Of a stretch of DNA of 64,000 nucleotides, positions 2,502-21,688 are shown in pieces. Numbering within the stretch: the first letter of the stretch is position 1; the number at the start of each line of letters is the position of its first letter. Below the pieces are notes generated by a model that worked only from the letters and a program-made list of their open reading frames with translations, did not search any database and was not told where the DNA came from. A program made the translations under genes and the position numbers. Source of the stretch: a bacterium (lineage in GTDB: Bacteria; Bdellovibrionota_C; UBA2361; RFPC01); contig JAUIIO010000002.1 in assembly GCA_030431715.1 (NCBI GenBank), positions 1 through 64,000 of the forward strand, in the 5' to 3' direction.

Positions 2502-3551
2502 CTACTCTACAACTATCTTATTCTCTATTAGAGCGAGTGATTTTAAAGCCAGTCGCTTTCTCTTCTTAAATGCTTTCTTCTTTTTACTGGCAAAGAGCTT
2601 AAGCTTACGAGAAGCTTTCTTTGAAGCTTTGGTCAGATTAAATTTGGCACTTGTTGTAGTAATATCTGCGCTGCTTTGTGAGATAAGGTCCAAAAGATAC
2701 TGAGCCAATTCGCGAAGACTAGCTCTCAGCGATAATTGCTCTTCCCTATTCTTTTTTTGAATTTTCTTCTTTACCTGAGAAATAAGTATCTTTGAATTGG
2801 CAATAGTGTCTAGAAGATCCTGAGAGGCACTGATTACGGTATCCGCTGGGGTCGGACTTGGATCTGGTTGAATCGGGCTCGCGGTCGGCATCGGTGTTGG
2901 AGTCGGTTCCTCCTCAACATCTGACTTAAGTATCACCACATGGTTATCATATGTAACACGGCCCTGCTGGATTACGGTCTCGCCTTTTGTAAATTTAAGA
3001 TTCCATGGCAGATCTACTCCAGTTGGTGCGCCAAAAAATATCTGGAAAATTTCCACAGGACCTAAGTTACCATTGCCATCTTCACGTTGAATTTCAGGAC
3101 CAATCTTAATACGAAATGTTCCAAGATGAGTTTCAGAACGTCCAGTAATACCGGAATTGTCAACCTCAGTCGGGACACCTCCAACGTTTCGCTCGTTATA
3201 GAGGGATTGCTCAGCTTGCATATCCAAGTTCCCGCCTAACTTATCAGGTGCTATGTAGATTCGAGAGTCATCATTGTCGTATTCCTCTCGAGGCGTAAAG
3301 GAGATGACCTCTGATGGTCCTGTCTTATAAATCGCATAGAAAGCATAAATTCGGCCGCCCTCCCAAAGACTTGGTTCATCAGCGTTTCTGTTTTCTACCA
3401 TGTAAAGTGGTATATCTAAGATCGCTCCCGGGGCTATCGACTTTGGGTCTACTTTGACATCAAAGTTATAGAGGGGTCTAGCATTTGCAGAGATGGCGAG
3501 AATGACAGAGCTCAGAAAGGTAAGTAGTGTAGACGCGAGCAATCTTTTCAT
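2502..3551 (-). CDS. Secreted protein with T/P linker and strongly basic C-terminal tail; function unknown
   Basis: It begins with a clear Sec signal peptide (MKRLLASTLLTFLSS to about residue 24, ANA-RP). Residues 25-210 are a beta-rich globular part, possibly cohesin/CBM-like (PLYNFDVKVDPKSIAPGA, ending VVILKSDVEEE). Then follow a T/P linker (PTPTPMPTASP) and a helical, very Lys-rich tail with the runs SKKASRKLKLFASKKKKAFK and KRKRLALKSL. The tail resembles the end of the ELWxxDGT protein at 13.8 kb. A GAGGT ribosome site lies 8 bases before the ATG. It converges tightly on the S66 peptidase gene (4 bp between stops). The cohesin-like reading is weak; the three-part architecture is what the sequence shows directly. 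Confidence 0.7.
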   Translation of the reverse strand: MKRLLASTLLTFLSSVILAISANARPLYNFDVKVDPKSIAPGAILDIPLYMVENRNADEPSLWEGGRIYAFYAIYKTGPSEVISFTPREEYDNDDSRIYIAPDKLGGNLDMQAEQSLYNERNVGGVPTEVDNSGITGRSETHLGTFRIKIGPEIQREDGNGNLGPVEIFQIFFGAPTGVDLPWNLKFTKGETVIQQGRVTYDNHVVILKSDVEEEPTPTPMPTASPIQPDPSPTPADTVISASQDLLDTIANSKILISQVKKKIQKKNREEQLSLRASLRELAQYLLDLISQSSADITTTSAKFNLTKASKKASRKLKLFASKKKKAFKKRKRLALKSLALIENKIVVE

Positions 3552-3623: not shown

Positions 3624-4802
3624 TCAGTCGAGGATATTCTCTGTAAAGTCCTTAATAAACTGGAGATTTGAAGCCGAGGTCACGTTAGCCCAGCGTGAGA
3701 TGTCCTGTTTCTCATATCCGGACATGGCGCAGTTTGCAGCGTCGCCATTTGACACAACACCAGCAAGCACCCAGTATCCGTCTCGTTTCACAACGAGAGG
3801 TCCGCCCGAGTCCCCATAACACGTATTCCCTTCGTCCTCTAGCTCAGTGAGATATTCGATCTCTAGACTCTCTTCATCCACTGAACTAATGGTGTTACTG
3901 GTGGCTCTAAAGTGAGTAGTGTCATCTGATTCACTAACGCCATATCCAGCAAAGAGTACTTCTTCACCGACCTCAATATCGTTTTCGGTATATATTGGAA
4001 AAATTTCAGTCTCAATACTCTCTCCAAGATAGAGCAGAGCAATATCGTGTTTTTCACCACCGGTGTATTCAGGATGCACAACACACCCGAGTACGTCACG
4101 CCTCAGATCATCACCATTTCGTACAGATAACTGCTCACATGGAATACTATTTACGCAGTGCGCTGCTGTGAGTATCACCGTGTCCGCAATTACATTACCT
4201 GTACAGTATTGAGAGCCGCGGTAATCAACAGGTACAACAGGAGATTGGCTAAAGCTACAGGCAGAACCGTTTACGATCCGATTATGTGCTCTCTCCTTTG
4301 AGTGGTAATCATATATGATTATATTTTCTTCTTCAGGTTCATAGAGTGAGCTTCCAAAAGCTTCACAAGCTTCGCCAAAGTTATCATTACTGTAATAACT
4401 TGTATCGAGCTTACACCGATTCGCACGATATTGACGGCAGCTATAGAGCCCTCCCCTAACTTGCCTTAGTGTTCCGACATCTGCGATAGCACGAAGTACC
4501 GTCTTTCTATCGCCGCGTCGCTTGGCCCTCTTCCTTCTTGTCTTGGCTTTACGTATCAGACGTCGGACATTACTCTGTGCACGCCTAAATCTCGTCTCCC
4601 TTCCATCAGCGTCAAGCAGTGTCCCTCGACACTCAGAACGGGTCTGTTCCTGCTCACATGAATAGAGCAAACCGCGAGGCCCTAGTGGTATATATGGAAT
4701 TTCAGCATGAAGTGTGCTCGGGGCGGAGAGCGCACAAAAAAGGATAGTAACTACCCAGAATTTTTGAATTTGATTTAGGAAAGAGTTTCTCTGGTGTCTC
4801 AT
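3624..4802 (-). CDS. Secreted chymotrypsin-fold (S1) serine protease zymogen with Cys-flanked basic pro-domain
   Basis: A signal peptide covers residues 1 to about 33 (LHA-EIP). A pro-region follows, with YSC at 47-49, a Lys/Arg-rich helical block at about 70-105 (RRAQSNVRRLIRKAKTRRKR) and YSC again at 120-122. The activation site RIVNG is at 175-179, as in trypsin-like zymogens. The triad is His215 (TAAHC), Asp253 (HDIALL) and Ser332 (GDSGGP). The residue equivalent to chymotrypsin position 189 is Asn326 rather than Asp, so classical trypsin specificity should not be assumed. The basic pro-domain is shared with other, non-protease secreted proteins in this window. It likely acts in the periplasm or outside the cell; the substrate is unknown. 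Confidence 0.88.
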   Translation of the reverse strand: MRHQRNSFLNQIQKFWVVTILFCALSAPSTLHAEIPYIPLGPRGLLYSCEQEQTRSECRGTLLDADGRETRFRRAQSNVRRLIRKAKTRRKRAKRRGDRKTVLRAIADVGTLRQVRGGLYSCRQYRANRCKLDTSYYSNDNFGEACEAFGSSLYEPEEENIIIYDYHSKERAHNRIVNGSACSFSQSPVVPVDYRGSQYCTGNVIADTVILTAAHCVNSIPCEQLSVRNGDDLRRDVLGCVVHPEYTGGEKHDIALLYLGESIETEIFPIYTENDIEVGEEVLFAGYGVSESDDTTHFRATSNTISSVDEESLEIEYLTELEDEGNTCYGDSGGPLVVKRDGYWVLAGVVSNGDAANCAMSGYEKQDISRWANVTSASNLQFIKDFTENILD

Positions 4803-5255
4803 AATATGCTCTGCCTCTTATAAATAATGCGTAATAAGCAACATGCCTTTTAAAGTTAAATGCATTTTAGGCCAGAACCCTCGCCAGACTATGAGCCGTA
4901 TCATGAAAGATTGTTAACAGGGTGAGACGTCGAGCTAACTAGCTGAAAGAAAGCTCACTTAAGACTCATGAGTATGATCCAGCTTACATCTCTGTATGAA
5001 CTGTTCTAAGATGGAAAGGCTTCAATCATGACCTGAGGAAACTTTGACGTAACTAGACTCTCTCATTTGTCAGCGTATTAATCTGCATCTTGAGACAGTA
5101 GATAGGCTTTTTGGTCCAGCGTTTGATTTCAAAACGGCATTCTCTCCCATATCAGATTGTTACATCCTAAAGCCACAAACATTCATCATTATTAAGGCTG
5201 AAAATTACTCAGCTCCGGGTTTGTTACGTTAAAGCCACTATGTATAGGGGACACT
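4803..5255. other. Intergenic region with no gene recognised
   Basis: This 453-bp gap separates two divergent genes (protease on minus, lipoprotein on plus), so it should hold both promoters. I see no convincing ORF, RNA gene or strong palindrome in it. Confidence 0.5.
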
Positions 5256-7193
5256 ATGAATTACCCAAAATCAAAACCTTCTGTTCTACTCATCTGTGCA
5301 GCTCTTATCACCATACTAACGGGCTGTAACGGGAGCTCTTCAAGCAATACCGAATCATTGCGAGAGTACACAGAAAAAACCCAAAATCTTAAGATTACAT
5401 CAGTTGCGGCGAAAGAGAGCGGAGCGACACTCTATGTCGATCACACTTTCGACTTTATCGTTGGAATACACTCAGATGAGACGGCTAACGTTATTCCTGT
5501 AACATTCACTGCCACTCCAGCAGACGGAAGCGGAGAGGAAGAAGAGATCGCCTACGGTCATATCGATCAGATAAATCCCGGCGAGAACCTCTACGACGTA
5601 AGTGTCTACGTAGAAGACATCGTATTCACGGGTAGCACTGAGAATTACACTATCCATGCCCACATCGATAGAGATGAACAGATTGAAGAGGTAAACGAGG
5701 AGGATAACCACTCAGCTCTTTTAGATGCAGCGCCACTGGTACTGCCGGTCATGCGCGAAGCTCAGGACACACAACGCATCGCGCTTCATCACCTCTCTCT
5801 TGCAAGAGACGCCCTTATCGTCGGAGAAGATCATGAACAAGAGAGCCCCTCTGAAGTGCATGGATCAATTACTCTTGCGTCCTACGGAGAAGCCGGTTCG
5901 GGAATAACCCTATCATCATGCCTGCTAGTAGCAGCAGATGACTGTCGTGAGCTTGTTCTTTCTGCCGATGGCACAGCATATACCTCAACAATTGGGTTTC
6001 CCACGGTTCCAGAAGATGATCCAACAACGTACGAATTTGACATTGAAGTCCCTGAAGCACTTAATGCATATCTTACTTCGATACTGCCAGAAACTGGCGA
6101 GCAACTCCCAATACGATTTACTATATCTCACCAAAACGGAAGTATCTTTGACCAAACAATCACCGAAGAGTACCCAGTAGGAGTCATTGCCCGAACTCAT
6201 GGTGTTAACGTAGCTGAGCACGTGAGTACCTTTGAACTTGAACAAGTGCAGCAAGCTGTATTTAGAGACTTCTGCGAGGGGGCGGAATGTGAACAAGAAG
6301 TAAACACAAGAAGCTGGAGCGGGATTATCGCTGCGATACTAAACCAACCCAAAGATTCTGACGGCTATGTTCCTGCCGATACCGTAATACACGAAGGGGG
6401 AATTAGAAATTACCACTATTCCGTTCCTGAATTAAGTGTCTCTCCAAGTCTCGGCGGTTCGCTGGCCGTAGTTATGCCATCAGCGGGAACTCCAGAAGAC
6501 CTACGAGCTGAGGGAAGTTTTGGTCTCGATATACCAATTAAAATCTTCTCAAAGAATTTTGAAGTGCTCGATCTTGATGGAAATGTCGTTATGGCTCCAA
6601 ACTCAATTGATGCGAATGAAGCAAAGATCGAAATTAAAACTCTCGGACATACAATTGCTGAATATAGCGACAGCGCGAAGGAACAACTCTCTAAAAGTAT
6701 TAACTTCGCAATCATTCCTCTCTTCGGTGGTAGCGCTAGTAAAAGCATAGGTTGGTGGAAATTTCGTGTGAGCGTAAAAGCATCTGCTGGTGGCTTGCTC
6801 TTTATGCACGGCAAAGCCGGGATCGATGATTCAGGGCTTTACATCTCAGGTGGTCCTAAACTTTCCGTAGGAGCCTCGGCTTCTGGCGGTGTCAGCATAG
6901 GAGTTGGTTCTGCATCTGCAGGAGGAGACGTCGATCTCGTGTCAGACTCACTCAGTGTCTCACAAAAGCTATCCCCTACTCTTAACTTTTCTGAGAAAAA
7001 AGTAAGTGCCAAGATTGGCCAGAAGGTCACAAATAATATTAAGGGGCCAAACGGGAGGCTCTACATTAAAGGTAAAGTAGGCTATAGTATCTTTAGTGTC
7101 TCAAAGTCTTTTACTATCGCGTCATTTTCAACTTATAGCAGAAATGACACGCTTTACAGTACAAGCAAAACTATTGCTGACGTTGACTTCTAG
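5256..7193 (+). CDS. Large lipoprotein, CARDB-like N-terminal domain, function unknown
   Basis: The start MNYPKSKPSVLLICAALITI leads to a lipobox (ILTGC), so it is predicted to be a lipoprotein anchored at Cys24. Residues 45-155 look like a CARDB/Ig-type beta-sandwich (FIVGIHSDETANVIPVTFTA, then the typical EEVNEEDNHS turn). The C-terminal third is Gly/Ser-rich with alternating short strands (GGVSIGVGSASAGGDVDLVS), like a beta-barrel or beta-prism. No enzyme motif was found. Its 3' end overlaps the convergent HEAT-like gene by 23 bp. Lipidation is well supported; the domain calls are moderate and the role is unknown. Confidence 0.75.
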   Translation: MNYPKSKPSVLLICAALITILTGCNGSSSSNTESLREYTEKTQNLKITSVAAKESGATLYVDHTFDFIVGIHSDETANVIPVTFTATPADGSGEEEEIAYGHIDQINPGENLYDVSVYVEDIVFTGSTENYTIHAHIDRDEQIEEVNEEDNHSALLDAAPLVLPVMREAQDTQRIALHHLSLARDALIVGEDHEQESPSEVHGSITLASYGEAGSGITLSSCLLVAADDCRELVLSADGTAYTSTIGFPTVPEDDPTTYEFDIEVPEALNAYLTSILPETGEQLPIRFTISHQNGSIFDQTITEEYPVGVIARTHGVNVAEHVSTFELEQVQQAVFRDFCEGAECEQEVNTRSWSGIIAAILNQPKDSDGYVPADTVIHEGGIRNYHYSVPELSVSPSLGGSLAVVMPSAGTPEDLRAEGSFGLDIPIKIFSKNFEVLDLDGNVVMAPNSIDANEAKIEIKTLGHTIAEYSDSAKEQLSKSINFAIIPLFGGSASKSIGWWKFRVSVKASAGGLLFMHGKAGIDDSGLYISGGPKLSVGASASGGVSIGVGSASAGGDVDLVSDSLSVSQKLSPTLNFSEKKVSAKIGQKVTNNIKGPNGRLYIKGKVGYSIFSVSKSFTIASFSTYSRNDTLYSTSKTIADVDF

Positions 7194-8997
7194 TAGCTAA
7201 CTGCTGGCGTATCGTTTCCTTAACCTGCGGGTCTCGTTCACGTGGCAAGAGGGTCTTAAGAATCACCGCGTTTGAGGAATATGTACCTTTGTGCTTGCCG
7301 AGATGAACAACGAGCGCCTTTCGTATTGTTGGGTCTGGTTCTTCAAATAAGATCTCTTGAGAGATACGCATAGCCTGTTTGTCCTGACGCTCAATGAGTC
7401 CCTGTACCATTTTATATCTACTAGACGTATTCGTCTCATCACGAATGCTACTAGTAAGAAGCTCTAAAGATCCGCCATCATCAAGGCGCCCCAGAGCTTT
7501 TGCCGCCTGCCCTCGCACGGCTGGATCAGGATCGTCAAGATAAGGCTCTGCGACTTGCCCAAGGAGCGGATGTCGGGTATTCCCAAGTGCCAGCATACTG
7601 GTACGAAACTGATCTTTATCATTATTCTGATACGCTTCGTGAACCCGGTCTCCCAGACGCTGCACACGTTCTGTGGCTGAGAGCATATTTACACCGAGAT
7701 AGCTATCAAGAGCAGCACCATAATTAAGAAGGGCCACGCTAGCAAAATCTTTATCAGGAGAGACGCTATTATCCTCAAGCGACTGCAGGACCTCTTCAGT
7801 CGGATGTTCGAGCTGACCAGCTGTCATGAGTGCCGACTCGCGGTAATGCCTAGGGATCTGATCATTATTGATAAGATTAACAAGACTTATCTGCGCTTCA
7901 GGCGTATCTGTAGAATGAAGAGCGTGTAAAATCGCACCAATAGTATCAACATCATCACTACGAGTAGCTTCGATAAAGTGATTTTCCACCTCTGGCAACG
8001 CATCAGGGTTATCGCGGAGTGTCTTTGCCAGCTCTAAGCTCCACGTTACTTTAGCACCAGGCCGCTCAGGGACCTTCTTAACTAGGGCGTCAATATCAAC
8101 TCTCCCTCTGGCCTCTGAGGACAAGGCACTCTGTGCCACTTCAATTTGTGGCTGATACGAGAGATAGCGACTCCTGAAGTCATCGGCACTTAAGAGAGAC
8201 GCAATCTGAACATCAGGAACTCGCGTGCGTTTCTTCAGACTCATTGAAAAAGAATAATGTACTCTTATTTCTCCCGAGCTTACCTCCGCCTCTGTCGAAC
8301 TCCTAAGTGATTTTAACCAAGAAGCAGAGCGCGAAGGCACAGCATAGAGCGATGCAGCAAGAATTTTTCCCTTTGCGCTATCGCCACTATCAAACGTCCG
8401 TATTGAGTCATAAGCTGATAGCGTACGCTTAATCCCCTGCCCATCCGGCACTACCACATACTCTGCAACAACTGCACCGATTGGGTCTTTGTCTATAACA
8501 TTCCAGTCAGGAGCGCCGTCTTCATTAAACGTTACCTGCAACCCATAATAGAACGAGCGTAGCTCCTGTGCATTTTGTTCAGAGATACGATCTGTGAATG
8601 TAACTTTCTGGACCTCTCCTCTGCGACTAAAAGACAGGAGTACTGGTGTTTCGTAAAGCCGGGCTTGAGCTCTCGTTTCTTCACGATCCACAAATTGTCT
8701 GGCCTTGGTAAGCTGAGCTACGGCTTCAATCACGTCTGGCTCAGTAGCCAGAACCTTCATCACCAAAACTCCCTCAAGTTTAGTGTGAGACCTTTTGTTG
8801 TCGGAAATAAGAGGTGATTTCTGCAGGTATGTTTTGATATCGCTTTGATATGTATACGCTAGGAGATCTCCCTTCTCCCATTTTAGGCGAGGCCAACTGC
8901 TTCTATCTCCCTCTATAAAGGAGAGATAAGAGAAAAGGACAAGAAGGCTCAGACAAACGAGCCCAATTAAATGATATCTATACTTACTATTTCGCAT
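7171..8997 (-). CDS. Membrane-anchored or exported vitellogenin-N-like / HEAT-repeat protein
   Basis: An N-terminal hydrophobic segment (residues 8-27) serves as signal or anchor. Residues 35-290 are beta-rich with the pattern W-x-x-G-D-L-x-x-Y, LEGVLVMKVL and SFSRRGEVQKVTF. This resembles the bacterial family related to the N-terminal barrel of vitellogenin/large lipid-transfer proteins, from recall and not by a search. The C-terminal half (about 330-600) is an array of HEAT-like helical repeats (PEVENHFIEATRSDDVDTIG, PAVRGQAAKALGRLDD). The two-part barrel plus helical horseshoe parallels lipid-transfer proteins, so lipid handling in the periplasm is a possible role, but this is inference. 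The stop lies inside the 3' end of the convergent lipoprotein gene. Confidence 0.6.
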   Translation of the reverse strand: MRNSKYRYHLIGLVCLSLLVLFSYLSFIEGDRSSWPRLKWEKGDLLAYTYQSDIKTYLQKSPLISDNKRSHTKLEGVLVMKVLATEPDVIEAVAQLTKARQFVDREETRAQARLYETPVLLSFSRRGEVQKVTFTDRISEQNAQELRSFYYGLQVTFNEDGAPDWNVIDKDPIGAVVAEYVVVPDGQGIKRTLSAYDSIRTFDSGDSAKGKILAASLYAVPSRSASWLKSLRSSTEAEVSSGEIRVHYSFSMSLKKRTRVPDVQIASLLSADDFRSRYLSYQPQIEVAQSALSSEARGRVDIDALVKKVPERPGAKVTWSLELAKTLRDNPDALPEVENHFIEATRSDDVDTIGAILHALHSTDTPEAQISLVNLINNDQIPRHYRESALMTAGQLEHPTEEVLQSLEDNSVSPDKDFASVALLNYGAALDSYLGVNMLSATERVQRLGDRVHEAYQNNDKDQFRTSMLALGNTRHPLLGQVAEPYLDDPDPAVRGQAAKALGRLDDGGSLELLTSSIRDETNTSSRYKMVQGLIERQDKQAMRISQEILFEEPDPTIRKALVVHLGKHKGTYSSNAVILKTLLPRERDPQVKETIRQQLATRSQRQQ

Positions 8998-9102
8998 AGC
9001 GACTCAAGAAAAAACGCATGGGAAATAATATCGCGTTCTCTCAGGATGAGCCAGATACTGAATGAAGCAGGGGTAGCGTTCGGCTATTCGATTCCATGTA
9101 GC

Positions 9103-9942
9103 TTAACGTCGGCTACAGCGCCGAAATACCAGTGCACCAGTTTGGGAAGAATCCTCACTATCAGTGAAGCTTCCGGCAATTGATTTCTTACTGACCACTA
9201 AGGAAATGCTTCCACGGTCTCCAAACGTATTTGAAAAAGAGCCGACAAGGTTTTTATCTTTAAGAACGAGGATTAAGTTTGCAGAACCTCCGTCCATTTT
9301 GATCTTGATGTTCACACTAGAACCACTGTGAGTGATAATAGATGGTCCAAAGTTCGACCTACACTTAGCATTTAAGTTGATAGTCGTCGCAGTCTCCTCT
9401 TTCGCTTCAAGGACTGACACTTTCTGTTGAAGCTTGTTAACCGATTCTTGTAGTTTTGCAATTTGCTTGAGCATTTTTGCATTGGCTTCACCGTTATTCT
9501 TAGCAATACGCTTCTCAAGCTGCCGTGCCTTTCGCCTTTTTGCTTTTAGCTGTGCAGTTACTTTCGCCGCTTGCTTTTCGGCCAACCTTACTTCTTTTGT
9601 GAATGGACTCGTAGCCGCTTTTGCTATAATTCGTATAGCTGAGCTAGCGGTCTTAACGAGAGCATGGAGAACAGTGGCCATAACAACCACCTGAGCGATG
9701 ACAGAACGGTTGTGAATACTACGAGTCGTTTGGCTCGAAGTCGCACAGGAGAGTCTGGACCTCATTTCGTCACTGAGCCACTCCATGTACTCCTTATCCG
9801 GCGCAACACTTACCTCTTCCTGACGGTATGACTCTGCAAGGGCCACGAGCTCATCATAACAATCCTGATTCTCTGATTGTGACTGCGCGAAGCAATAACT
9901 AGGAATAAGAGTGAAAATGACGGTAAGAAGAAGGAGTCTCAT
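9103..9942 (-). CDS. Secreted coiled-coil protein, function unknown
   Basis: A Sec signal peptide ends at about residue 19 (CFA-QSQ). Two Cys (28 and about 66) bound a short acidic helix region. A long Lys/Arg/Ala-rich coiled coil follows, about residues 113-190 (EKQAAKVTAQLKAKRRKARQ, then KLQESVNKLQQKVSVLEAKE). The last 80 residues form a small beta-domain with repeated GSF turns (LVGSFSNTFG, IAGSFTDSED). The ATG is preceded by GAGG at 7 bases. No family recognised. The basic coiled coil is compositionally like the basic segments in neighbouring secreted proteins, although it has a normal heptad pattern. Confidence 0.65.
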   Translation of the reverse strand: MRLLLLTVIFTLIPSYCFAQSQSENQDCYDELVALAESYRQEEVSVAPDKEYMEWLSDEMRSRLSCATSSQTTRSIHNRSVIAQVVVMATVLHALVKTASSAIRIIAKAATSPFTKEVRLAEKQAAKVTAQLKAKRRKARQLEKRIAKNNGEANAKMLKQIAKLQESVNKLQQKVSVLEAKEETATTINLNAKCRSNFGPSIITHSGSSVNIKIKMDGGSANLILVLKDKNLVGSFSNTFGDRGSISLVVSKKSIAGSFTDSEDSSQTGALVFRRCSRR

Positions 9943-10246
9943 GAGTTATCCTCAATGGTATAAAAATCTATATCAATGTTAGTATAATCACACAGATAAA
10001 TCACTAATCAATCTCGGGCACTGTGGTTTTGCCCACCCTAGTATTATGGAGAGCTGACGCTAAACGTGAGGTATTTACGCTGTTAAGCAGTCTGTTATTC
10101 ACTCAGGCCAGTTCGTTTTGTATTGAGAAATTGCACTAATATCCACTACTTAATCTGAGAGTCGTGCGTGACACCTGTGTATGATTAACCGCTAGGCTGT
10201 GCTAGTATAACACTCTCATACAACCTGCCAATTAATGGAACATTCT

Positions 10247-11194
10247 ATGTGTAAGTATCGCCTCATAATTTTATCATTACTCATTGTATTTTCAGCAGTA
10301 CACCCCGCCTTTGGGCAAACCTACTCTAAGCTTAGCCCAAACAGTGACCTGTATTGTGTATACCTACCGAACGGGAAGACAAGGATTGCCGTTGGTAAGG
10401 GGGATACCTATAAGACCATGGGTTTTAAACGGGCGCAGAAGCGTACGGCTAAAAACAGTTCTCGGAACCGTGTCAAAGCCAGAAAGATTACTAGGCTCAT
10501 TAAGAAGCTTCAAAGACAACAAAACAGTGGAAGTCTTTCAATTAACCTTAATCCTAAAGACGTAAAAGCTGTGCAAAAGTTTTACCTGCAAGGCGATCTT
10601 GATATTGAAGTATCACCAAGCATCTCTGAGAACATTGCCAAGCTAGAAAGCATCCGCTCTACTTTCTACAACAACGTTGATTTTAATAGAGAGATTATCA
10701 AGCTTATTAAAAAGTGTAAGCGTCGAGAAGTACCTTCACCGGGAACACTCCCTACCATGTTTATTAATGTCATGACCTCAAAATGGAATGCAGAGCACGA
10801 TTCGTCTGGAAGTGGATATGTGATCGTAGCCGCTGTTGTACCAGCATATATTGCCCTTCAATATCCTTATCTCTGCTACGACCATCCTACCCAAAGCACA
10901 AGATACGACAAAGCAACCACCGATCCGTGCTACGCCGAAGGGATCAAGAACTTTCTGACTGAAGACTGCGCTAACATCGTGGATAGAGATTCTAAAGGAA
11001 GACCTGAATTCTACCTAGCGGCGCTAGACAAACGAAACTTCTATTTTAAAAACCGCCCTGGCGCTGCATCGTTTACTGAGGCTGCCGCCGCTGCTGAAGT
11101 AAAGCTTAGAACTGACGATATTTATGGATGGGGAGACTCTGTTCCATATGTAACCGTACCAAATATTGATGCTTGCAAGTCGAGCGCATTCTAG
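10247..11194 (+). CDS. Secreted protein with N-terminal Cys-flanked basic helical module; function unknown
   Basis: I prefer the ATG at 10247, with GGAA 6 bases upstream and the signal peptide MCKYRLIILSLLIVFSAVHP, over the ATG at 10235. The mature protein starts with YCVYLPNGKTRI, then a basic block KTMGFKRAQKRTAK and RKITRLIKKLQRQQ, and closes with LIKKCKRRE. This is the same order (aromatic-x-Cys-V, NG turn, AQ+R, basic helices, Cys) as in the genes at 12.8 kb, 20.8 kb and the protease at 3.6 kb. The remaining about 150 residues hold several Cys (LCYDHP, DPCYAEG, TEDCANIV) and match no family I know. It likely folds with disulphides in the periplasm or outside. Confidence 0.65.
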   Translation: MCKYRLIILSLLIVFSAVHPAFGQTYSKLSPNSDLYCVYLPNGKTRIAVGKGDTYKTMGFKRAQKRTAKNSSRNRVKARKITRLIKKLQRQQNSGSLSINLNPKDVKAVQKFYLQGDLDIEVSPSISENIAKLESIRSTFYNNVDFNREIIKLIKKCKRREVPSPGTLPTMFINVMTSKWNAEHDSSGSGYVIVAAVVPAYIALQYPYLCYDHPTQSTRYDKATTDPCYAEGIKNFLTEDCANIVDRDSKGRPEFYLAALDKRNFYFKNRPGAASFTEAAAAAEVKLRTDDIYGWGDSVPYVTVPNIDACKSSAF

Positions 11195-11201
11195 AGATTT
11201 C

Positions 11202-12617: not shown

Positions 12618-12825
12618 AACAATAAATTACTACTTTGAATTCGTGTGATCATAGCAGCTGTGTGCACATCCAGATAGCCTCAGGATCACTTCTGAGTGCT
12701 AGATTGTCCGTTAATAGCTGTGTGCTTGGCAGTGCACGTTCCTGACTATAGCTAGAATAATGCGGCAAAGAGTGCTATCATCTGGCAGTGATATACAAAC
12801 TATGCGTAACCGGAGACTCCTCCCA

Positions 12826-13671
12826 ATGATACTATGTCGTAGGCTATTTACATTTTTGCTGCTCTCTTCTACTTTTTTGGCGATACAATCACTTCAGGCA
12901 CAGTTTTACGTACCTATAGCCGGAGAAGATGACACGCATTCACAGTACACTTGCGTCAGGATTCCAAATGGACCTTCTAGTGTTTTAGAAATCAAAAAAA
13001 ATGGATCCACAAAAACGATCTCAACGAAGGCGGCACAGCGCCGAATAGCGAGATCAGTACGACGTTCAGGAAGTAGAGTCCGATCGTTAAAACAGCTTAT
13101 TCGCCGAGCAAATAAGAAACAGAAGAAGAAACTCCGCAAAAAATTACGTGTAGCTCAAGCAAAATTAAGAAGCATACGGTATATTCAGGAACGTATGCGA
13201 GAGTGTGCCAAGGGTGAGCTTCTCATTGGAGCTGGGGGAAGTCCCGTCTTTCTTTCCACAACATTTGAGGATCCGAATGACTCATCAAAGAGACTTAGTG
13301 GCTTCAACTACGGATTCCTCTTTACGCCGCCAAAGCAATATAAAGGTGATGACTACTGCGTGATCATATCCGGCGCTGAGGAGACACTCACAGGAATCGG
13401 CGGAATATCATACAATACCGAGTTTGAGTCTTCTACATCGAGTGTTCCGCAATGCAGAAGCCGAAGTGGGATCTCATTCTGCGTAGAAGGGATGCAAAGC
13501 GATGAAGTTATGGTACTCATCACTGGCGGGATCATCACTGAAGATGCAGGCAACTGTTCACCCGAATATCGATGTTCAATAACCGAATTGGCCGGGGCAC
13601 TTTCAAACCACTATAGCAGCGCGATCTTAAATTCCATCAGGGCAAATCCCGGTGGCGGAGCGTGTAACTAG
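12826..13671 (+). CDS. Secreted protein with N-terminal Cys-flanked basic helical module; function unknown
   Basis: Start choice: the ATG at 12826 gives a compact signal peptide (MILCRRLFTFLLLSSTFLAI to LQA-QFY) with GGAG about 10 bases upstream; in-frame ATGs at 12760 and 12802 would only add a polar extension. The mature N-terminus reads YTCVRIPNG, then STKAAQRRIARSVRR, LKQLIRRANKKQKKKLRKKL and finally RMRECAKG. This is the best example of the shared basic hairpin. The rest (about 150 residues) has six or more Cys and a central YCVIISGAEE strand, possibly a small disulphide-rich beta domain. No catalytic motif seen. Confidence 0.7.
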   Translation: MILCRRLFTFLLLSSTFLAIQSLQAQFYVPIAGEDDTHSQYTCVRIPNGPSSVLEIKKNGSTKTISTKAAQRRIARSVRRSGSRVRSLKQLIRRANKKQKKKLRKKLRVAQAKLRSIRYIQERMRECAKGELLIGAGGSPVFLSTTFEDPNDSSKRLSGFNYGFLFTPPKQYKGDDYCVIISGAEETLTGIGGISYNTEFESSTSSVPQCRSRSGISFCVEGMQSDEVMVLITGGIITEDAGNCSPEYRCSITELAGALSNHYSSAILNSIRANPGGGACN

Positions 13672-13832
13672 AGTACCCTAACTTCATATTTATCCCAGCG
13701 TTTTGAACCTTATTGTCGTACGTCGCTTTGTATGATTATTTTTTGACTTTGATGTTCTAAATCCATACAATCCCCTGCTAACAGTTCAGGTTATTTCGTT
13801 TTTTTCAAAGCTTCATTTAAGGAACACCTCAC

Positions 13833-16800
13833 ATGCAAAGAATCATTTCTTTCTCACGCCAAGCGATCATAGCCCTAGTACTACTTTGCTGTCTGCATAA
13901 TACGCATGCTCTTGAGCCTGAACTTGTGTTAGATCTCAACACAATCCCCGGTAGTTCAACCGCCAGTAGCCTCTTCCCATTTAAGGATGGCTACCTCTTT
14001 ACTAACAATGTTGACGGTGAAGGAGTTGAGCTCTGGATCACTGATGGTACCGAAGCGGGCACACAACTTCTCAAAGATATTCGTCCCGGCAGCGGAGCTT
14101 CTTTCCCGAGTGGATTTGTTGCAGGAAGTATAGATGGTAGTGAGATCGTTTTTTTCTCAGCAACTACTGATGCTGAGGGACAAGAACTCTGGATTACCGA
14201 TGGAACAGAGGTCGGGACCAAACTCGTTAAAGACATCCAGCCCGGCAGTCTTGGTTTTATTTCTACGAGTGACGCCGTTTTTGATCCCGTACTGGAGGTG
14301 CTTCTCTTTAGAGCAAATGACGGTACTCACGGTACAGAATTATGGAAGTCTGATGGAACTGCCGAAGGCACTGTGCTTGTTGAAGATATCTACACCGGAT
14401 CTTCTTCGGCTAACCCGCGTAATATCGTCCTTACCTCTACAGGTATTGCTTTTTCAGCTTCAAAGTCTGGCGAAGGTGACGAATTAAGAAAATCTGATGC
14501 CCCTTACACCAGCGTAAGCTTGGTTAAAGATCTCCGTACTGGCGGCTCTAGTTCTGGACCAACATTCTTTGCATGGAACTCGAGTCTTAATTTACTTTTC
14601 TTTTCATGCAATCTCTTAAATGTTGGTAGAGAACTTTGCTCAAGCGATCTTACCGAAGGTGGAACAGGACTACACACTGATATTAATAGTGGTGGCTCAT
14701 GGTCTAACCCGCAGTTTCTTATCAGTGTTGGTAGTAAAGTATTTTTTCAGGCAGAAGACGGCAGTAGCGGGAAAGAGCTTTTCAGCGCAGATGACAATCC
14801 TGCTAATACCGCCCTGTTTGCCGACATAGAGAGCGGGAGTGGCGACTCAAACCCAACCCTCTTTGAACCATATGGCACTGACATAATCTTTCGCGCAACA
14901 ACTTCGGCTCACGGTAGTGAGCTCTGGAGAACAAGCGGGTCAGGTGTTTTACGCCTCTCTGATATAAATCCAGGTCCTGAGAATAGCTCCATACTTAATG
15001 TTACTGTAGCTGGCTCTCGAATCTTTTTTCGCTCAAGTGATTCTGGAACAGTAGGAGAAGAACTCTTTGTCTCAGATGGGACCCCGGGTGGTACCGGGCT
15101 CTTCTTTGATGGCTTTCCAGCCGATGGCGCTTCTTCACAACCAACGACTGTTGTGAACAATGGAAACGAAGTCGCCTTCATCACAAATCTGCCTTCAAAT
15201 ATTCTTTACACTATAGCAAACGGTGCAACAACTCCTACTGAAGTTTATGACTTTGCAATTCCTGGAACATCTGCTCCTTCTACCCCAAAAGTTCTCGCCA
15301 AAATAGGTGACAATCTCATCGTCGCAGCGAACGATGGTATCTCCGGTCAGGAGCTCTGGTCTCTATCACCAGCTGGTGAAGCTACACTCATCGTAGATAT
15401 CGCACCGGGAGCTCTCTCAGCGGGCTTAAGTAAAGAAAAATCTCTCTTCGCAAACGGTAAGTTATATTTTACTGCAGACGACTCTACAGCCGGCGATGAA
15501 CTCTGGGTAACAGACGGCACTGCAGCTGGTACAATGATGATTAAAGACATCAATCCCGGCTCCGACGGAAGCGACATACGGAACCTTACTTATGCAGGAG
15601 GAAATCTTATCTTCACAGCTGACACGCTCGCTGAACAAAGAGAGCTCTGGGTTTCAGACGGGACTACAACAGGTACAAAGCTTTTGTTTGATATAAACGG
15701 ACAGACCGGTGTTGGTTCAGAACCTGATGAGCTCACCGCATATAACGACATGGTCTATTTCACCGGCGAGGATAGCGGTGGTGATTCTGAGCTCTGGGTA
15801 ACTGATGGTACTACTGGTGGCACGATACGTTTACTGGACATCGAACCGATTTTCGGTTCGTACCCAGCAAACTTTACCCCAATGGGAGGGCTCCTTTACT
15901 TTACGGCTGAAACAAACCTTGAAGGTGAAGAGCTCTGGGTCACTGATGGTACCGTGGCTGGCACAATGATGGTGAAAGACATCAACCCCGGTGGTGGCGG
16001 TTCTCGTCCAAGAGATCTCGTGGCTGTTGGTGATATGCTCTTTTTCAGGGCCCGTGATGAGAACCTCGGAGAAGAGCTCTGGGTTTCAGACGGGACTGCT
16101 GCCGGCACAACGATGGTCAAAGACATTAACCCCGGTAACCCTTCATCAAACATTAATCATATCCTTGCCGGGTTTGACCGAGTCTATTTTGAAGCAAATG
16201 ATGAAACACACGGTGATGAGGCATGGGTAAGTGATGGAACTGAATCCGGCACAATCCTTTTAACTGATATCAAGCCCGGCTCAGACGGCTCTAATGTCGA
16301 GTTCTTTGTGACAACTGATAATAGAGCCTTTTTTAAAGGCCAATCTGAGGAAGAAGACGACGAGGTATGGGTGACAGACGGAACTCCGGATTCAACTCAA
16401 ATGCTCGGTCCAATTAGGCGCGGTGATTTTAGCGCCTTCCCGAATGACTTTAGCGTTTTCGATGGTATTGTCTACTTTAGGGCCGACAACGGACTCATCG
16501 GGAGCGAACTGTGGATGATAAACGCTGATGAGTGTCCAGAGGACACGGCCAAGCTTGAAGCAGGTATCTGTGGTTGTGGCCTCACTGAGGACGACAGTGA
16601 CAGCGATGGCACGCTTGATTGTAACGACGAGTGTTCATTTGACCCTGCCAAGGTAATCAGCGAGATATGCGGTTGCGGAGTTGCAGAAACTGATACTGAC
16701 GGTGACGGCACTCCGGACTGTATCGATGAATGTTCAGCTGATTCACTTAAAGCCACTGCTGGTTCGTGTGGTTGCGGTACACCTGACGAAGATCTTGATG

Positions 16801-17120
16801 CAAGTGGCGTTGCTGATTGCTTAATTACTGAGGAGATACAGGTGAGAAGTGATCTTCTTGCGAATCTCCTCAATGAATTTAAGCGAAAGCCAAAGAAAGG
16901 TCGTAAAGCAAGACTTAAAAGCATCTTTCTGGCGTACAAGGAGCTCAACCGTTACTCGCTTACGCAACTTGATGCATTCGTGCAAAGTACGACAAAAAAG
17001 ACGAAGAAACGTCTTAAGATCTTGCGTAGAAACGTAAAGAAATTTCGCAAAAAGGCAACGAATAAAAATAAACGCAAAAGTCTTAAGGCCCTTGCAAGAT
17101 TTCTCGCAATCGCGCCTTAA
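13833..17120 (+). CDS. Giant secreted ELWxxDGT-repeat protein with three Cys-rich TSP3-like repeats and basic tail
   Basis: A signal peptide (to about residue 26, THA-LEP) is followed by roughly 16 repeats of 45-55 residues with the hallmark ELWVTDGT...GT-x-x-hKDINPG, the known ELWxxDGT repeat. Several middle copies are degenerate (ELRKSDAP, ELFSADDN, ELWSLSPA). Repeats of this type are thought to form beta-propeller-like folds. Next come three Cys/Asp repeats (AGICGCG-x8-DSDGTLDC) of the type repeated 26 times in the protein at 43.6 kb. The last 95 residues are helical and extremely basic (FKRKPKKGRKARLK, KKTKKRLKILRRNVKKFRKK). An AAGGA site precedes the ATG. Likely a large surface or secreted protein; ligand unknown. 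Confidence 0.88.
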   Translation: MQRIISFSRQAIIALVLLCCLHNTHALEPELVLDLNTIPGSSTASSLFPFKDGYLFTNNVDGEGVELWITDGTEAGTQLLKDIRPGSGASFPSGFVAGSIDGSEIVFFSATTDAEGQELWITDGTEVGTKLVKDIQPGSLGFISTSDAVFDPVLEVLLFRANDGTHGTELWKSDGTAEGTVLVEDIYTGSSSANPRNIVLTSTGIAFSASKSGEGDELRKSDAPYTSVSLVKDLRTGGSSSGPTFFAWNSSLNLLFFSCNLLNVGRELCSSDLTEGGTGLHTDINSGGSWSNPQFLISVGSKVFFQAEDGSSGKELFSADDNPANTALFADIESGSGDSNPTLFEPYGTDIIFRATTSAHGSELWRTSGSGVLRLSDINPGPENSSILNVTVAGSRIFFRSSDSGTVGEELFVSDGTPGGTGLFFDGFPADGASSQPTTVVNNGNEVAFITNLPSNILYTIANGATTPTEVYDFAIPGTSAPSTPKVLAKIGDNLIVAANDGISGQELWSLSPAGEATLIVDIAPGALSAGLSKEKSLFANGKLYFTADDSTAGDELWVTDGTAAGTMMIKDINPGSDGSDIRNLTYAGGNLIFTADTLAEQRELWVSDGTTTGTKLLFDINGQTGVGSEPDELTAYNDMVYFTGEDSGGDSELWVTDGTTGGTIRLLDIEPIFGSYPANFTPMGGLLYFTAETNLEGEELWVTDGTVAGTMMVKDINPGGGGSRPRDLVAVGDMLFFRARDENLGEELWVSDGTAAGTTMVKDINPGNPSSNINHILAGFDRVYFEANDETHGDEAWVSDGTESGTILLTDIKPGSDGSNVEFFVTTDNRAFFKGQSEEEDDEVWVTDGTPDSTQMLGPIRRGDFSAFPNDFSVFDGIVYFRADNGLIGSELWMINADECPEDTAKLEAGICGCGLTEDDSDSDGTLDCNDECSFDPAKVISEICGCGVAETDTDGDGTPDCIDECSADSLKATAGSCGCGTPDEDLDASGVADCLITEEIQVRSDLLANLLNEFKRKPKKGRKARLKSIFLAYKELNRYSLTQLDAFVQSTTKKTKKRLKILRRNVKKFRKKATNKNKRKSLKALARFLAIAP

Positions 17121-17288
17121 AATAAGTAGATAACTCTCTTAGAGAAGAGAAACCTTGTGCCTTTCTAATAGCTTATCGCACCTTGGAACTGGCCTGCTAT
17201 AGGACCGGCGTTTAATCTACGTCCGCTCGAATTTCAAGAGGAGAGATCAAGCCTATAAGGCCAATTAGAATCATTGAATTAATGAGTC

Positions 17289-19547
17289 TTAAAAACTAAA
17301 GGTAACTCCCCCACCCCACTCATAGTCAGAGTGCCATTGTGCTTGGAGTGCTATATCCCTACTGAGCTGATACTGGCTTCCCCAGCGGAGTTCCCACTCT
17401 TCACGTGAATCGTATTCCGCCTCATAATAGACATGAAGACGTGGTGTAAGTTCAAATGACTTTCCAAGCGCGAGCTGATATCCGAGATCTGAATCTATCC
17501 AGTGTCTTGTTTCGATATTTAGGGGTAGTAAATAGCGAAAACCGGCAACGCCGTGTTCCCTTTCAAACTCCTCATCATCACCCTCGAGGTTTGCTCCAAC
17601 AAAAACGTTCCAGAAGCGATTAATATAGTATTCATAAAGCGGGGTTGCTTCCCATTCATAATCATCTACATGCGCCCAACCGATCTGCCATTCTGTAGAA
17701 AAAATATTCTTGGCATTTGCAAGAGCAAAATTTCCCTGCGCCATATTACTTAAGGCTGATACATTACCCATATAGTAAAAGTCATCGTGCATGATTTTGT
17801 TCTGATCGATATCATTCGGCGGGACAAAACTATTGTAGTGTACCATGCGAGCCATACCAGACATCATATGGTAAAGAAGATGGCAGTGAAAAAACCAGTC
17901 TCCATCCTCTACGGCATCAAACTCAATAACCGTGGTCGCCATAGGAGCAACCACTACCGTGTGCTTCAGTGGAGAGTACTCACCATGTTTATTTACGACG
18001 CGGAAAAAATGGCCATGAAGATGCATCGGATGATACATCATGGTTCTATTCACCATGACGAAACGCACGACCTCCCCATGTTCAATCTTTATGGTGCTCT
18101 CTTCAGACATGACTTTATTGTTGAGCATCCAAACGTAACGCTCCATATCACCATCTAAAGTAAGCTTTACCTCTCTTACTTTTTTATCAGAGTCAAAGGT
18201 GGTTTTGTGCAAAGATTTTAATTTTTCATATGGGGGATTTGGACGTCTTCCCTGTCCGTTCACAACGATATCACGGTGAATACTTACATCTTCTGAGAGC
18301 GCGCCCAAAAAGCTGTTCGGCTGATACGGCTTATCTTCGTCAGAAACGCCCTTCATCTGATGATTGTGGTGCGAATGCATACTGTGTTTCATATGCTTAT
18401 CGTGAGACATGCCGTGCATGGAATGAGACATCTCCTTATCATCAGACGAAGACATCCCCATGGCTCCCCAAGGAGTTATCGCCAAGACGCTCTCCATGCT
18501 CGGTCCGTGCATAGCCTTATAGAGATTTGGCCATGGAACAGTCGGTGCTTCTTCTCTCTCTCCATCTCCGATCCAGAGAGAAGCACGGCCAGAATTGTCA
18601 TGAGAAGTGGCTCGAAACTCCTGTGAAACATCGCCTTTGAGGTCAACAATTACATCATACGTCTCAGCTACCCCCAATAACAAACGCTTAATGTCGAAAG
18701 GTTCTACTGGCAATCCATCTGCTGTAACAACTCGCATCGGACCACCAGAGAATTCGGTGTAGAAGAATGAACTTGCCGAGCCGTTAATAATTCGAAGTCG
18801 CATCTTTTGACCTTGTAGATCATTAAGCTGCGAAGTGGATGCGCCATTAATAAGAAAGGCATCATATGCAACGTCCGAGAGATCCATCGGTGGCATCCGT
18901 CCCAGCTCACGGCTAAAGTAATCACCTAACATTCCAAGCTGTGCAGCCCCCAAGAGACTCTGTGCACTTTTCTTTCTGATTGAATACCATTCACTTCCTC
19001 GTTTTAGAGTGTGAAGTACTTCTGACGGATGCTCGTTCGTCCAATCCGAAAGAACCACGACATGATCTGGGATTTCATCAATTGAGGTCTTCTCTTTAGG
19101 TTCAATAATAAATGCTCCGTAAAGACCTCTTTGTTCTTGCAAACCACTATGGCTGTGGTACCAGTACGTGCCGGATTGCCGGAGAGTAAATTTGTAAGTA
19201 AATGTTTCTCCCGGCTTAATTGGCGGATAGGTCATGTTTGGAACTCCATCCATTCGATTTGGAAGTAGCAGTCCGTGCCAGTGGATTGAGCTATTTTCCT
19301 CTAACTCATTCGTAACGTGGATGATGACGGTGTCTCCCTCAGTAAATCTCAGGACCGGTGCAGGGATGCTGTCATTTACGGCCAGCGCTTGGACATCTTC
19401 TCCTCCAAGATTTACTGTCTTAGAAGAGATCGTAAGATGCCGCTCAACAGTTTCTGCTAGAGCTGGAGCAACACCGAGCACAACAGTAAAAGAGAGCGAT
19501 AAGAGGAAAAATCTGGAAAGTTGATTAAATTTCACTATTTGAAACAT
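17289..19547 (-). CDS. CopA-type multicopper oxidase fused to a CopB-type outer-membrane barrel domain
   Basis: The ATG at 19547 gives a normal Sec signal peptide (MFQIVKFNQLSRFFLLSLSF, cut after ALA, residue 31); upstream only a GTG without ribosome site extends the frame. The cupredoxin copper motifs are HWHG (89-92), YWYHSHSG (about 128-135), HPMHLHGHF and HCHLLYHMMSGM, i.e. the full type 1/2/3 ligand set of laccase-like oxidases. Between them lies a Met/His-rich stretch (MSHSMHGMSHDKHMKHSMHS) typical of copper-handling CopA/PcoA. From about residue 614 to 752 the sequence switches to CopB/PcoB: W(Q/A)-x-D-YEWEATPLYEYYINRF, GFRYLLPLNIETRHWIDSD and the C-terminal aromatic F. In characterised systems these are two proteins (periplasmic oxidase, outer-membrane barrel). 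Usual CopA is Tat-exported; here no twin Arg is seen. Confidence 0.88.
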   Translation of the reverse strand: MFQIVKFNQLSRFFLLSLSFTVVLGVAPALAETVERHLTISSKTVNLGGEDVQALAVNDSIPAPVLRFTEGDTVIIHVTNELEENSSIHWHGLLLPNRMDGVPNMTYPPIKPGETFTYKFTLRQSGTYWYHSHSGLQEQRGLYGAFIIEPKEKTSIDEIPDHVVVLSDWTNEHPSEVLHTLKRGSEWYSIRKKSAQSLLGAAQLGMLGDYFSRELGRMPPMDLSDVAYDAFLINGASTSQLNDLQGQKMRLRIINGSASSFFYTEFSGGPMRVVTADGLPVEPFDIKRLLLGVAETYDVIVDLKGDVSQEFRATSHDNSGRASLWIGDGEREEAPTVPWPNLYKAMHGPSMESVLAITPWGAMGMSSSDDKEMSHSMHGMSHDKHMKHSMHSHHNHQMKGVSDEDKPYQPNSFLGALSEDVSIHRDIVVNGQGRRPNPPYEKLKSLHKTTFDSDKKVREVKLTLDGDMERYVWMLNNKVMSEESTIKIEHGEVVRFVMVNRTMMYHPMHLHGHFFRVVNKHGEYSPLKHTVVVAPMATTVIEFDAVEDGDWFFHCHLLYHMMSGMARMVHYNSFVPPNDIDQNKIMHDDFYYMGNVSALSNMAQGNFALANAKNIFSTEWQIGWAHVDDYEWEATPLYEYYINRFWNVFVGANLEGDDEEFEREHGVAGFRYLLPLNIETRHWIDSDLGYQLALGKSFELTPRLHVYYEAEYDSREEWELRWGSQYQLSRDIALQAQWHSDYEWGGGVTFSF

Positions 19548-19615
19548 ACCAAATGGTAACACAACAAGCAGAGACAGACACAACACTCAAATCATACAAA
19601 TATCTGCCAATTGCC

Positions 19616-19639
19616 GGATAGGAACAGAATCGTCTATCC
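19616..19639. promoter_or_regulatory. Short inverted repeat between divergent copper-oxidase and DUF2950 genes
   Basis: GGATAG and CTATCC arms are separated by 12 bases in the 130-bp divergent intergenic region. It could be an operator for either gene; the arms are short and the evidence is weak. Confidence 0.25.
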
Positions 19640-19677
19640 TATTATTCGATATCCTTCATTCAAAGAGAGTTACGACT

Positions 19678-20709
19678 ATGAACATACTTCGCTCACTTCT
19701 CCTTTTCTCATCCCTGCTCGCTCTAGGCTGCGCCTCAATGGATGGTACAACGATGAATACTAAAAGAAATGTAACTTCTTTTGATACGGCCGATGAGGCA
19801 TTGGCGGAACTCAAATCAGCGCTGGCTTCAGAGGATCCCGAACGGCTTGTCGAGATCTTTGGAAAGCAATCACGACCCGTTTTTATTACCGGGGATCCAG
19901 TCGGCGATAAGGCGATGATGAGACGTTTTCATAAGAAATTTCAAGAACGAGCAGAGCTCGTAGATGTGATTAGCCCTGAATACATTAAAGAGCAGTGGCT
20001 TAAGGTCCGCTACGGTGCTGAAGGATGGGATATGTATATCCCGCTCGCTTATCGTCAGGGCAAGTGGGTGTATGCAACAGAGATTGCGCTTGAAGCTGCG
20101 AAACGCACACGCAGATCCATTAATGAGGTAGCTACTCTTGATACACTTTCAGCTCTTGTAGCCGCTCAGCATAAATATAAAGAAGAGGATTTGAATCAGA
20201 ATGGCGTCGCCGACTTCGCGCAAAAGATTATCAGCTCTCCCGGCAAACGAGACGGACTGTACTGGGACGCAGAGATGGAAGGCTCTTTTAGCCCTCTTGA
20301 GGGACTTGTAATGCAGGCACTTGCTGACGGATATACTCATGAAGAGGGACAGGCCCCGACATATGAAGGATATGTCTACCGCCAACTTAAAGCTCAGGGT
20401 CGAGGGGCTAAGGGAGGCGCTAAGCCATACATGAAAAACGGCCTGATGGTAAACGGCTTTGGCTATGTAGCGTATCCTGTGAAATGGGGAGCAAGTGGGA
20501 CAAATACTTATATCGTGAGTAACAGTGGCCGGATCTGGAAGAAAGACCTTGGGTTTCGCACAACTTCAATTGCCGAGGATATGAAGACCCTAAACAGAGA
20601 TTACACATGGGTACGAGTTGAGTACACTCATACCGGGGAAGACAAAACTCGCCGGAACCTTGCGCCTGTAACCTATTCTCCGTATTCATCAAGCTCTTCC
20701 CGCCATTGA
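19678..20709 (+). CDS. DUF2950 family lipoprotein
   Basis: The N-terminus MNILRSLLLFSSLLALGCAS carries a lipobox (LALGC), so lipid attachment at Cys18 is predicted. The body follows the DUF2950 pattern through its whole length: SFDTADEALAELKSALASED, ITGDPVGD, GKWVYATEIALEAAKRTRRS, a hydrophilic AAQHKYKEED, SSPGKRDGLYWD, SPLEG, YEGYVYRQLKAQGRGAKGGA, MVNGFGYVAYPVKWGASG and KDLGFRTTSIAEDM. The family is widespread in Gram-negative bacteria, often as exported proteins, and no reaction is known. It is divergent from the copper oxidase gene with 130 bp between, so co-regulation is possible but unproven. Confidence 0.85.
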   Translation: MNILRSLLLFSSLLALGCASMDGTTMNTKRNVTSFDTADEALAELKSALASEDPERLVEIFGKQSRPVFITGDPVGDKAMMRRFHKKFQERAELVDVISPEYIKEQWLKVRYGAEGWDMYIPLAYRQGKWVYATEIALEAAKRTRRSINEVATLDTLSALVAAQHKYKEEDLNQNGVADFAQKIISSPGKRDGLYWDAEMEGSFSPLEGLVMQALADGYTHEEGQAPTYEGYVYRQLKAQGRGAKGGAKPYMKNGLMVNGFGYVAYPVKWGASGTNTYIVSNSGRIWKKDLGFRTTSIAEDMKTLNRDYTWVRVEYTHTGEDKTRRNLAPVTYSPYSSSSSRH

Positions 20710-20803
20710 TCTGAGCCTGAAGGCGTTTCTTTAGGCAAGGATCCTTGCTATACTACTGTGCACTATCTTTTAACCAAGTAACGTTTGTATCTACGGAACT
20801 CTC

Positions 20804-21688
20804 ATGAAAAAATCCCTTATCTTCGTGATTTTACTTCTTGCCCTTCCCTTCTCTTCTGCATCATCTCAGCAGCGGCTTGTCGCGCAACTCGATACGGATT
20901 CTGATTGGGGATGTGTGTTAAGTGAAGATGGGAATACGCTTGAGCGCAAAGGAAAGCTTGGGGTCACATCGGAACTTGAACTCAAAAAAGGCCTTAGGAA
21001 AATAAATAGACGTCGCAGCAAGATTCTCAAGAAGGTTTCCACCCTTCAAGACTTCAGCTCTCTAACAAAAAAGCAGAAAAGTAAACTTAGGAAGTTTAGA
21101 AAAAATGCAAAAAAAGCCAATAAGCTAAGGAAAGCAATTCATAAGTGTAGAAACAGCACGATCGAAACACCTTCACCAGACCAAAGAACATTCGCCTTCA
21201 CATGCGAACACGCATTTAAATTTCCAGCATACGCTGACGGTGATAATAGTTGTGGGTTAAACTTGCTTCAGCTAAAGAAAAGCGGACGCTCATTTAGCAA
21301 AGTCTCTCTCGCTGCTGCCATCCGTATTATCGACAAATCACTCCTTGAAGAGTGTGAGAACGATGGTGGAACGTACTACAGACCAACCGATCTACGCCCT
21401 TTTCTTCCACTCTATCACGGTGTTTGCCATATGGGTGAGGAAGAGCTTACGAGCTCTAATCGACCATCCATTGATGTGTTTCGCGGAGAGCTAAATATGG
21501 AAACGGTGAACGAAGACTGTTTTGGTCCTGTTCCTGCTCCAGGCGTTGAAGATCCTTGCGACGGATATGATCCTGATGCTCCTCGCGGTGGAGGTGGAAC
21601 GACCACTGATGACGATAAGAAAGAGACTCCCGAGGAGGAAGAAGACTGCTTTATCCTCGCGATGGAAACAGTGAACGAAGACTGCTAG
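20804..21688 (+). CDS. Secreted protein with N-terminal Cys-flanked basic helical module; function unknown
   Basis: The signal peptide MKKSLIFVILLLALPFSSAS is cut near residue 21. The mature start WGCVLSEDGNTLERKGKLGV is followed by a dense basic region (KKGLRKINRRRSKILKKV, KKQKSKLRKFRKNAKKANKL) and closes with IHKCRNS. This is the same module as at 3.6, 10.2 and 12.8 kb. The rest (about 170 residues) is Cys-containing with no family match. The C-terminus is acidic (DDDKKETPEEEEDC) and contains two copies of METVNEDC, the second as the very last residues. The basic N-terminus and acidic tail could neutralise each other within or between molecules; that is speculation. Confidence 0.68.
   Translation: MKKSLIFVILLLALPFSSASSQQRLVAQLDTDSDWGCVLSEDGNTLERKGKLGVTSELELKKGLRKINRRRSKILKKVSTLQDFSSLTKKQKSKLRKFRKNAKKANKLRKAIHKCRNSTIETPSPDQRTFAFTCEHAFKFPAYADGDNSCGLNLLQLKKSGRSFSKVSLAAAIRIIDKSLLEECENDGGTYYRPTDLRPFLPLYHGVCHMGEEELTSSNRPSIDVFRGELNMETVNEDCFGPVPAPGVEDPCDGYDPDAPRGGGGTTTDDDKKETPEEEEDCFILAMETVNEDC
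21497..21688 (+). repeat. Direct repeat of a 24-nt coding unit (METVNEDC) bounding an acidic/Gly linker
   Basis: The 24-base unit at 21497-21520 recurs at 21662-21685, immediately before the stop codon, with two silent differences. The region between encodes Pro/Gly and an Asp/Glu run. Confidence 0.85.

Follow-up and report, generated by a model that had tools for sequence, protein, structure and literature searches.

GW modules and the LPS-binding segments of S-layers are non-catalytic, mobile domains, often cationic, that occur on varied secreted proteins. Lipoprotein anchors consist of a lipid-modified Cys at the mature N-terminus. In chymotrypsin, the N-terminal peptide of the zymogen stays attached after activation, held by a disulphide (C1–C122). 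Here we compare with these systems a module carried by exported proteins of an uncultured bacterial lineage. The module is an undescribed, recombining accessory domain with a strongly cationic exterior, in which a conserved Cys pair encloses a predicted β-hairpin and antiparallel coiled-coil hairpin. Naming this unannotated domain would offer a starting point for dozens of uncharacterised secreted proteins.

The module resembles GW modules and LPS-binding S-layer segments in its mobility, its varied secreted hosts and its cationic charge, but unlike known domains that bind cell walls, LPS or teichoic acids, it matches no Pfam or NCBIfam family, is a helical hairpin with flanking Cys and occurs in one order only. 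Lipoprotein (SPII, lipobox) anchors of S1 proteases in the same order take the same N-terminal place in homologous enzymes, and both kinds of N-terminus are followed by a linker Cys that co-occurs with a Cys after the activation site; the module, as opposed to the lipidated Cys, is a folded cationic unit behind an SPI signal. As in chymotrypsin, a Cys pair would hold the N-terminal part to the cleaved enzyme, but here the second Cys of the pair closely follows the activation motif, and what it would hold is a folded domain that also occurs on non-proteases. Prefoldin-like coiled-coil hairpins are not secreted and have no flanking Cys, and the match of the module to coiled-coil hairpins in the PDB (E = 0.17) is not significant.

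Four exported proteins with a common N-terminal module

The window, the whole stretch of 64,000 nucleotides that was analysed, encodes four proteins of common layout, one on the minus strand (3624–4802) and three on the plus strand (10235–11194, 12760–13671 and 20804–21688). Each has a signal-peptide-like N-terminus and then, in order, an aromatic-(x)-Cys motif (YSC, LYC, YTC and WGC), a turn with DG or NG and a stretch rich in Lys and Arg that a further Cys closes. The layout and the basic motifs, which the initial annotation had described for at least four secreted proteins, are present in all four. Two of its open reading frame starts move, from 10247 to 10235 and from 12826 to 12760, and the other two coordinates stand; its figure of at least four carriers is true but too low, since we count 12 in this genome.

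The minus-strand protein is a Peptidase S1/Trypsin (PF00089, E = 8e-24) with the motifs AAHC, GDSGGP and RIVNG and the conserved Asp, and its PDB fold matches in Foldseek are trypsin-like proteases. The catalytic domain runs from RIVNG (residue 175) to the end of the protein (3627–4280, minus strand). The module (4413–4667, minus strand), a four-Cys subtype with C49, C58, C122 and C130, lies in the pro-region ahead of RIVNG, in agreement with the earlier reading. In the other three proteins, the module occupies 10346–10717, with a long and divergent helical part, 12940–13221 and 20900–21163 (all plus strand), the latter two being of a two-Cys subtype. The downstream parts differ, as had been noted: the trypsin domain is the only Pfam match above cut-off in the four proteins, the bodies of 10235–11194 and 20804–21688 lack a Pfam family, and that of 12760–13671 has none above cut-off. 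The 20804–21688 protein has a putative orthologue (L052) in genome G001, and both contain the octapeptide METVNEDC twice, in the C-terminal third, with the second copy at the extreme C-terminus. A plasmid search with this protein gave no matches.

A domain family restricted to one order

A profile built from 18 module copies, all from other genomes, was searched against six-frame open reading frames from 0.86 Mb of the window’s genome. It recovered three of the four window proteins, those at 20804 (E = 1.2e-7), 12760 (1.8e-6) and 3624 (1.7e-3), in addition to L002 (1.9e-5) and L005 (2.2e-3), and in each protein the match runs along essentially the whole module. The same reading frames reversed gave nothing at E ≤ 1 over the 0.86 Mb. 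Across 28 genomes of the order, a reversed profile reached E = 0.0025 at best, in partial matches of which none was end-to-end, as opposed to best values of 1e-19 to 1e-20 for the true profile. These two controls contradict the case in which the initial annotation would have failed, that of low-complexity matches only. Beyond the invariant positions the copies are loosely conserved (28% mean column identity), and it is the alignment, not the protease alone, that retrieves close relatives as a query; the protease by itself found no related loci. The 10235–11194 protein was missed by the outside-genome profile in these reading frames, and a profile built without it matches at E = 0.03 over profile positions 3–63, the first half of the module. 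We regard it as the most divergent member in the window, assigned partly on its layout.

Counted across searches, the module occurs in approximately 45 carriers from 12 genomes, all of one order, which bears out the proposal that a mobile domain is shared by secreted proteins of a single clade whose downstream parts are unrelated. Its hosts include S1 proteases, right-handed β-helices (L066, L170 and L175), dockerin-like proteins (L053 and L181), a CxxCH protein (L073), a YncE-like propeller that bears a haem-binding motif (L180) and several bodies that match no family; outside the proteases, no Pfam match to a body reaches the curated cut-off. The module is N-terminal in nearly all carriers, and C-terminal, after ten glycines, in one protein of genome G008 (L163). 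Of eight trypsin-like paralogues in the window’s genome, seven carry it before the activation motif and one (L008) does not.

The module is present in all six sampled genomes of the window’s family. It also occurs in no fewer than four further families of this order (f2, f10, f12 and f13), and f3 and f4 give weak matches. A profile search of 17 genomes from other orders of the class, which could miss divergent copies, found none; the phylum-level and class-level searches covered the same 46 genomes. Trypsin matches led to 50 further genomes, of which 49, mostly Myxococcota and other former Deltaproteobacteria, are unrelated and gave no match to the module; the one positive genome, that of L154, has its match at the same contig position as G008 and is evidently the same genome. 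The named relatives are metagenome-assembled genomes (6_bin.32 and Bdellovibrionales bacterium HKST-UBA20 and HKST-UBA25).

The layout corresponds to no described family in the Pfam, NCBIfam or PDB libraries, in line with the earlier claim. Searched against Pfam-A and NCBIfam, 23 module members gave no family matched by more than one member (best E = 8e-4). A profile search of the PDB gave a best E of 0.17, which is not significant, with coiled-coil hairpins among the best matches. The Foldseek list, for which the module was searched together with the protease body, contains trypsin-like folds only, and a literature search returned nothing relevant to the module.

Predicted fold and charge of the module

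The module is approximately 75–95 residues long, and 130 in one copy. In the AlphaFold model of the protease, made from a 25-sequence alignment, two strands (residues 47–53 and 58–64) precede two helices (72–96 and 99–127), with block mean pLDDT values of 92–95 for residues 61–100 and 81–85 for residues 101–120. The anticipated helical hairpin is thus predicted confidently over most of its length in the protease, with a β-hairpin before it. A single-sequence model of the 20804–21688 protein, low in confidence (pLDDT 38), shows these elements in the same order. The first Cys sits in the β-hairpin and the second ends the Lys/Arg-rich helical hairpin, and these two are the sole invariant positions across 23 copies. 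The predicted topology brings C122 alongside the first turns of helix 1 and close to the hairpin that contains C49, an arrangement compatible with a putative disulphide clasp between these two Cys and their equivalents in the other copies. A four-Cys subtype, with an extra Cys in the second strand and another after helix 2, is found only in one protease subgroup (L001–L003, L019–L021, L023 and L024).

With the closing Cys of the 23 copies as the reference point, hydrophobic residues of helix 2 fall at −3 (22 of 23 copies), −10, −13, −17 and −20. The intervening positions are mostly Lys or Arg, and acidic residues are near-absent until close to the Cys. Judged by this pattern, helix 2 is a coiled coil with a 3–4 hydrophobic spacing and a cationic exterior. 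Of 33 module copies, 32 carry a net charge between +9 and +26, and the median is approximately +17; the remaining copy, L320 in G008, is of doubtful membership.

Exchange of lipobox and module in S1 proteases

We classified 70 S1 homologues in the order by their N-termini: 19 have the module, 46 a lipobox (15 of them assigned by eye where a strict automatic rule had missed them), 5 neither and none both. A lipobox was defined as [LVI]-x-[GAS]-C at the signal cleavage site; in this group, which includes L008 of the window’s own genome, it is followed by Gly/Ser. On inspection, the module-bearing proteases contain no credible lipobox, and the one automatic match (GMTC in L006) lacks G, A or S at −1. 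The exclusion of lipobox and module gives a Fisher p of 7e-13, or 2e-5 with the strict lipobox rule alone, which is not independent evidence because the exchange of lipobox for module is a single event on the protease tree. In this tree of catalytic domains, the module proteases cluster together (SH-aLRT 82), with lipobox enzymes of genome G016 as their sister group. A search for a second, independent exchange among the β-helix bodies found one homologue only, in G008, without a lipobox. This homologue, the β-helix protein L320:874-3018, shares 46% identity in its body with the module-bearing L170; its N-terminal segment is short, bracketed by Cys and not basic, and may be an ancestral or degenerate form of the module.

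A second feature unites the two kinds of anchor. In the window protease, a linker Cys146 and Cys182 flank the activation site R/IVNG (4257–4367, minus strand). Scoring of the linker Cys required a basic residue before the activation motif where possible and excluded the lipobox Cys, which left two of the 70 proteases unscorable. Of the remaining 68, which are related homologues and so do not count as independent cases, 61 have both the linker Cys and the Cys that closely follows the activation site, 7 have neither, and none has one without the other. The pair occurs in 19 of 19 module proteases, in 42 of 44 scorable lipobox proteases and in none of the five with neither anchor. This perfect co-occurrence suggests that a disulphide across the cleavage site probably keeps the N-terminal anchor, whether lipid or module, attached to the active protease. 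The initial annotation had proposed that activation would release the module, and the same counts indicate that it probably does not. Such a disulphide would argue that the active enzyme needs to keep its module, just as it would the lipid.

Proposed retention at the cell surface and its alternatives

We propose that the module is a lipid-independent, electrostatic retention device for the envelope or extracellular matrix, and put the probability of this reading at roughly 0.5. Carriers would be exported via Sec and then kept on the envelope or in the extracellular matrix, the cationic hairpin binding a polyanion, which may be the LPS core, an acidic exopolysaccharide or extracellular DNA. In the proteases, the module would take over from the lipobox anchor of related trypsins and would remain on the active enzyme through the disulphide spanning the activation site. 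Its presence on unrelated bodies, and its one C-terminal position after poly-Gly, are as expected for a tethered binding module and not for a leader. Together, the charge, the mobility, the indifference to N- or C-terminal position, the replacement of a lipid anchor and the probable retention after activation fit a polyanion-binding retention module. Polyanion binding itself is suggested by the net charge and the cationic exterior; basic, disulphide-clasped helices could equally serve protein–protein contacts or membrane activity. The earlier interpretation, of a mobile domain that could bind a polyanion or keep partners together, is therefore partly supported. Retention makes a testable claim, namely that a dedicated cationic hairpin can hold non-lipidated exported proteins at a Gram-negative-type surface.

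Substrate or prey targeting and assembly or sorting are the main rivals to retention. If the module served targeting, its polyanion binding would direct the attached hydrolases and binding proteins to extracellular DNA, sulphated glycans or foreign LPS. The same charge and fold data would suit this role, and several bodies look hydrolytic or carbohydrate-related (trypsin-like, β-helix and dockerin-like), but the unclassified bodies and the protein with the haem motif are hard to join by one substrate, and in the proteases the module occupies the place of the homologues’ anchor; we consider targeting possible but doubtful. We think it unlikely that the Cys-clasped hairpin instead oligomerises or is read by a partner dedicated to secretion or surface assembly. 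In favour of this role, the module is clade-restricted and recombining, nearly always adjoins the signal peptide and conserves a heptad-like spacing, and its logic resembles that of the C-terminal sorting domains of other systems. The sequence beyond the Cys, the spacing and the charge is however as loose as the low column identity indicates, unlike a recognition signal, and the C-terminal copy in L163 also speaks against this role.

The remaining explanations account for less of the evidence. Given its place between signal peptide and RIVNG in the proteases, the module could be a propeptide, an intramolecular chaperone or inhibitor freed on activation, a side idea of the initial annotation. 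We consider this highly improbable, as the module also occurs on many non-proteases and once at a C-terminus, most homologous trypsins of the order lack it, and a Cys pair lies across the activation site. We give equally little credence to a released antimicrobial or membrane-active peptide: the helices are cationic with hydrophobic spacing, but they belong to a coiled-coil hairpin with flanking Cys that has no evident cleavage site in the non-proteases and would be tethered by a disulphide in the proteases. A Lys/Arg compositional bias with chance Cys and no common domain, to which the low column identity and a secretome enriched in several kinds of basic stretch might point, is scarcely credible, because the outside-genome profile recovers full-length modules where the reversed controls do not, and the copies share invariant Cys, a common topology and a confident fold.

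Basic segments elsewhere in the secretome

Retention by charge may extend beyond the module. In the 0.86 Mb sample of the window’s genome, with proteins sorted by a home-made signal-peptide rule, 21 of 107 predicted non-lipidated exported proteins contain a strongly basic stretch of 40 residues, of whatever kind, against 0 of 22 predicted lipoproteins and 6 of 347 others. With this rule the contrast between SPI and SPII proteins is modest (p = 0.02). The corresponding fractions of non-lipidated exported proteins elsewhere are 5 of 56 in G001, where the sample includes only 6 lipoproteins, 2 of 28 in G007 and 0 of 24 in family f11. With approximately one-fifth of the sampled non-lipidated exported proteins bearing a strongly basic segment, the question concerns the surface organisation of the lineage and not one gene. 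We tentatively suggest that one order may have evolved a general, lipid-independent electrostatic anchoring, in which a transposable Cys-clasped cationic hairpin, along with several unrelated basic segments at N- or C-termini, replaced the lipoprotein anchor on a large part of the exported proteins; in the proteases, a disulphide would keep the anchor in place after zymogen activation.

One such segment lies in the window itself. The ELWVTDGT-repeat protein 13833–17120 ends in a Cys-free, strongly basic segment of 81 residues (16875–17117, plus strand; net +19 in 40 residues). The segment is not matched by the module profiles and has two paralogues in the genome (C44:56868-57110 and C44:86576-86818) at 67–68% identity; it is possibly a device analogous to the module. 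The exported proteins 2502–3551 and 43584–47369 have Lys/Arg-rich helical C-terminal parts, which in one of the two follow an extended series of thrombospondin type 3-like repeats. Another basic N-terminal region, with a different Cys spacing, is common to L259:17629-19944 and L261:1459-3864, a pair of large exported paralogues.
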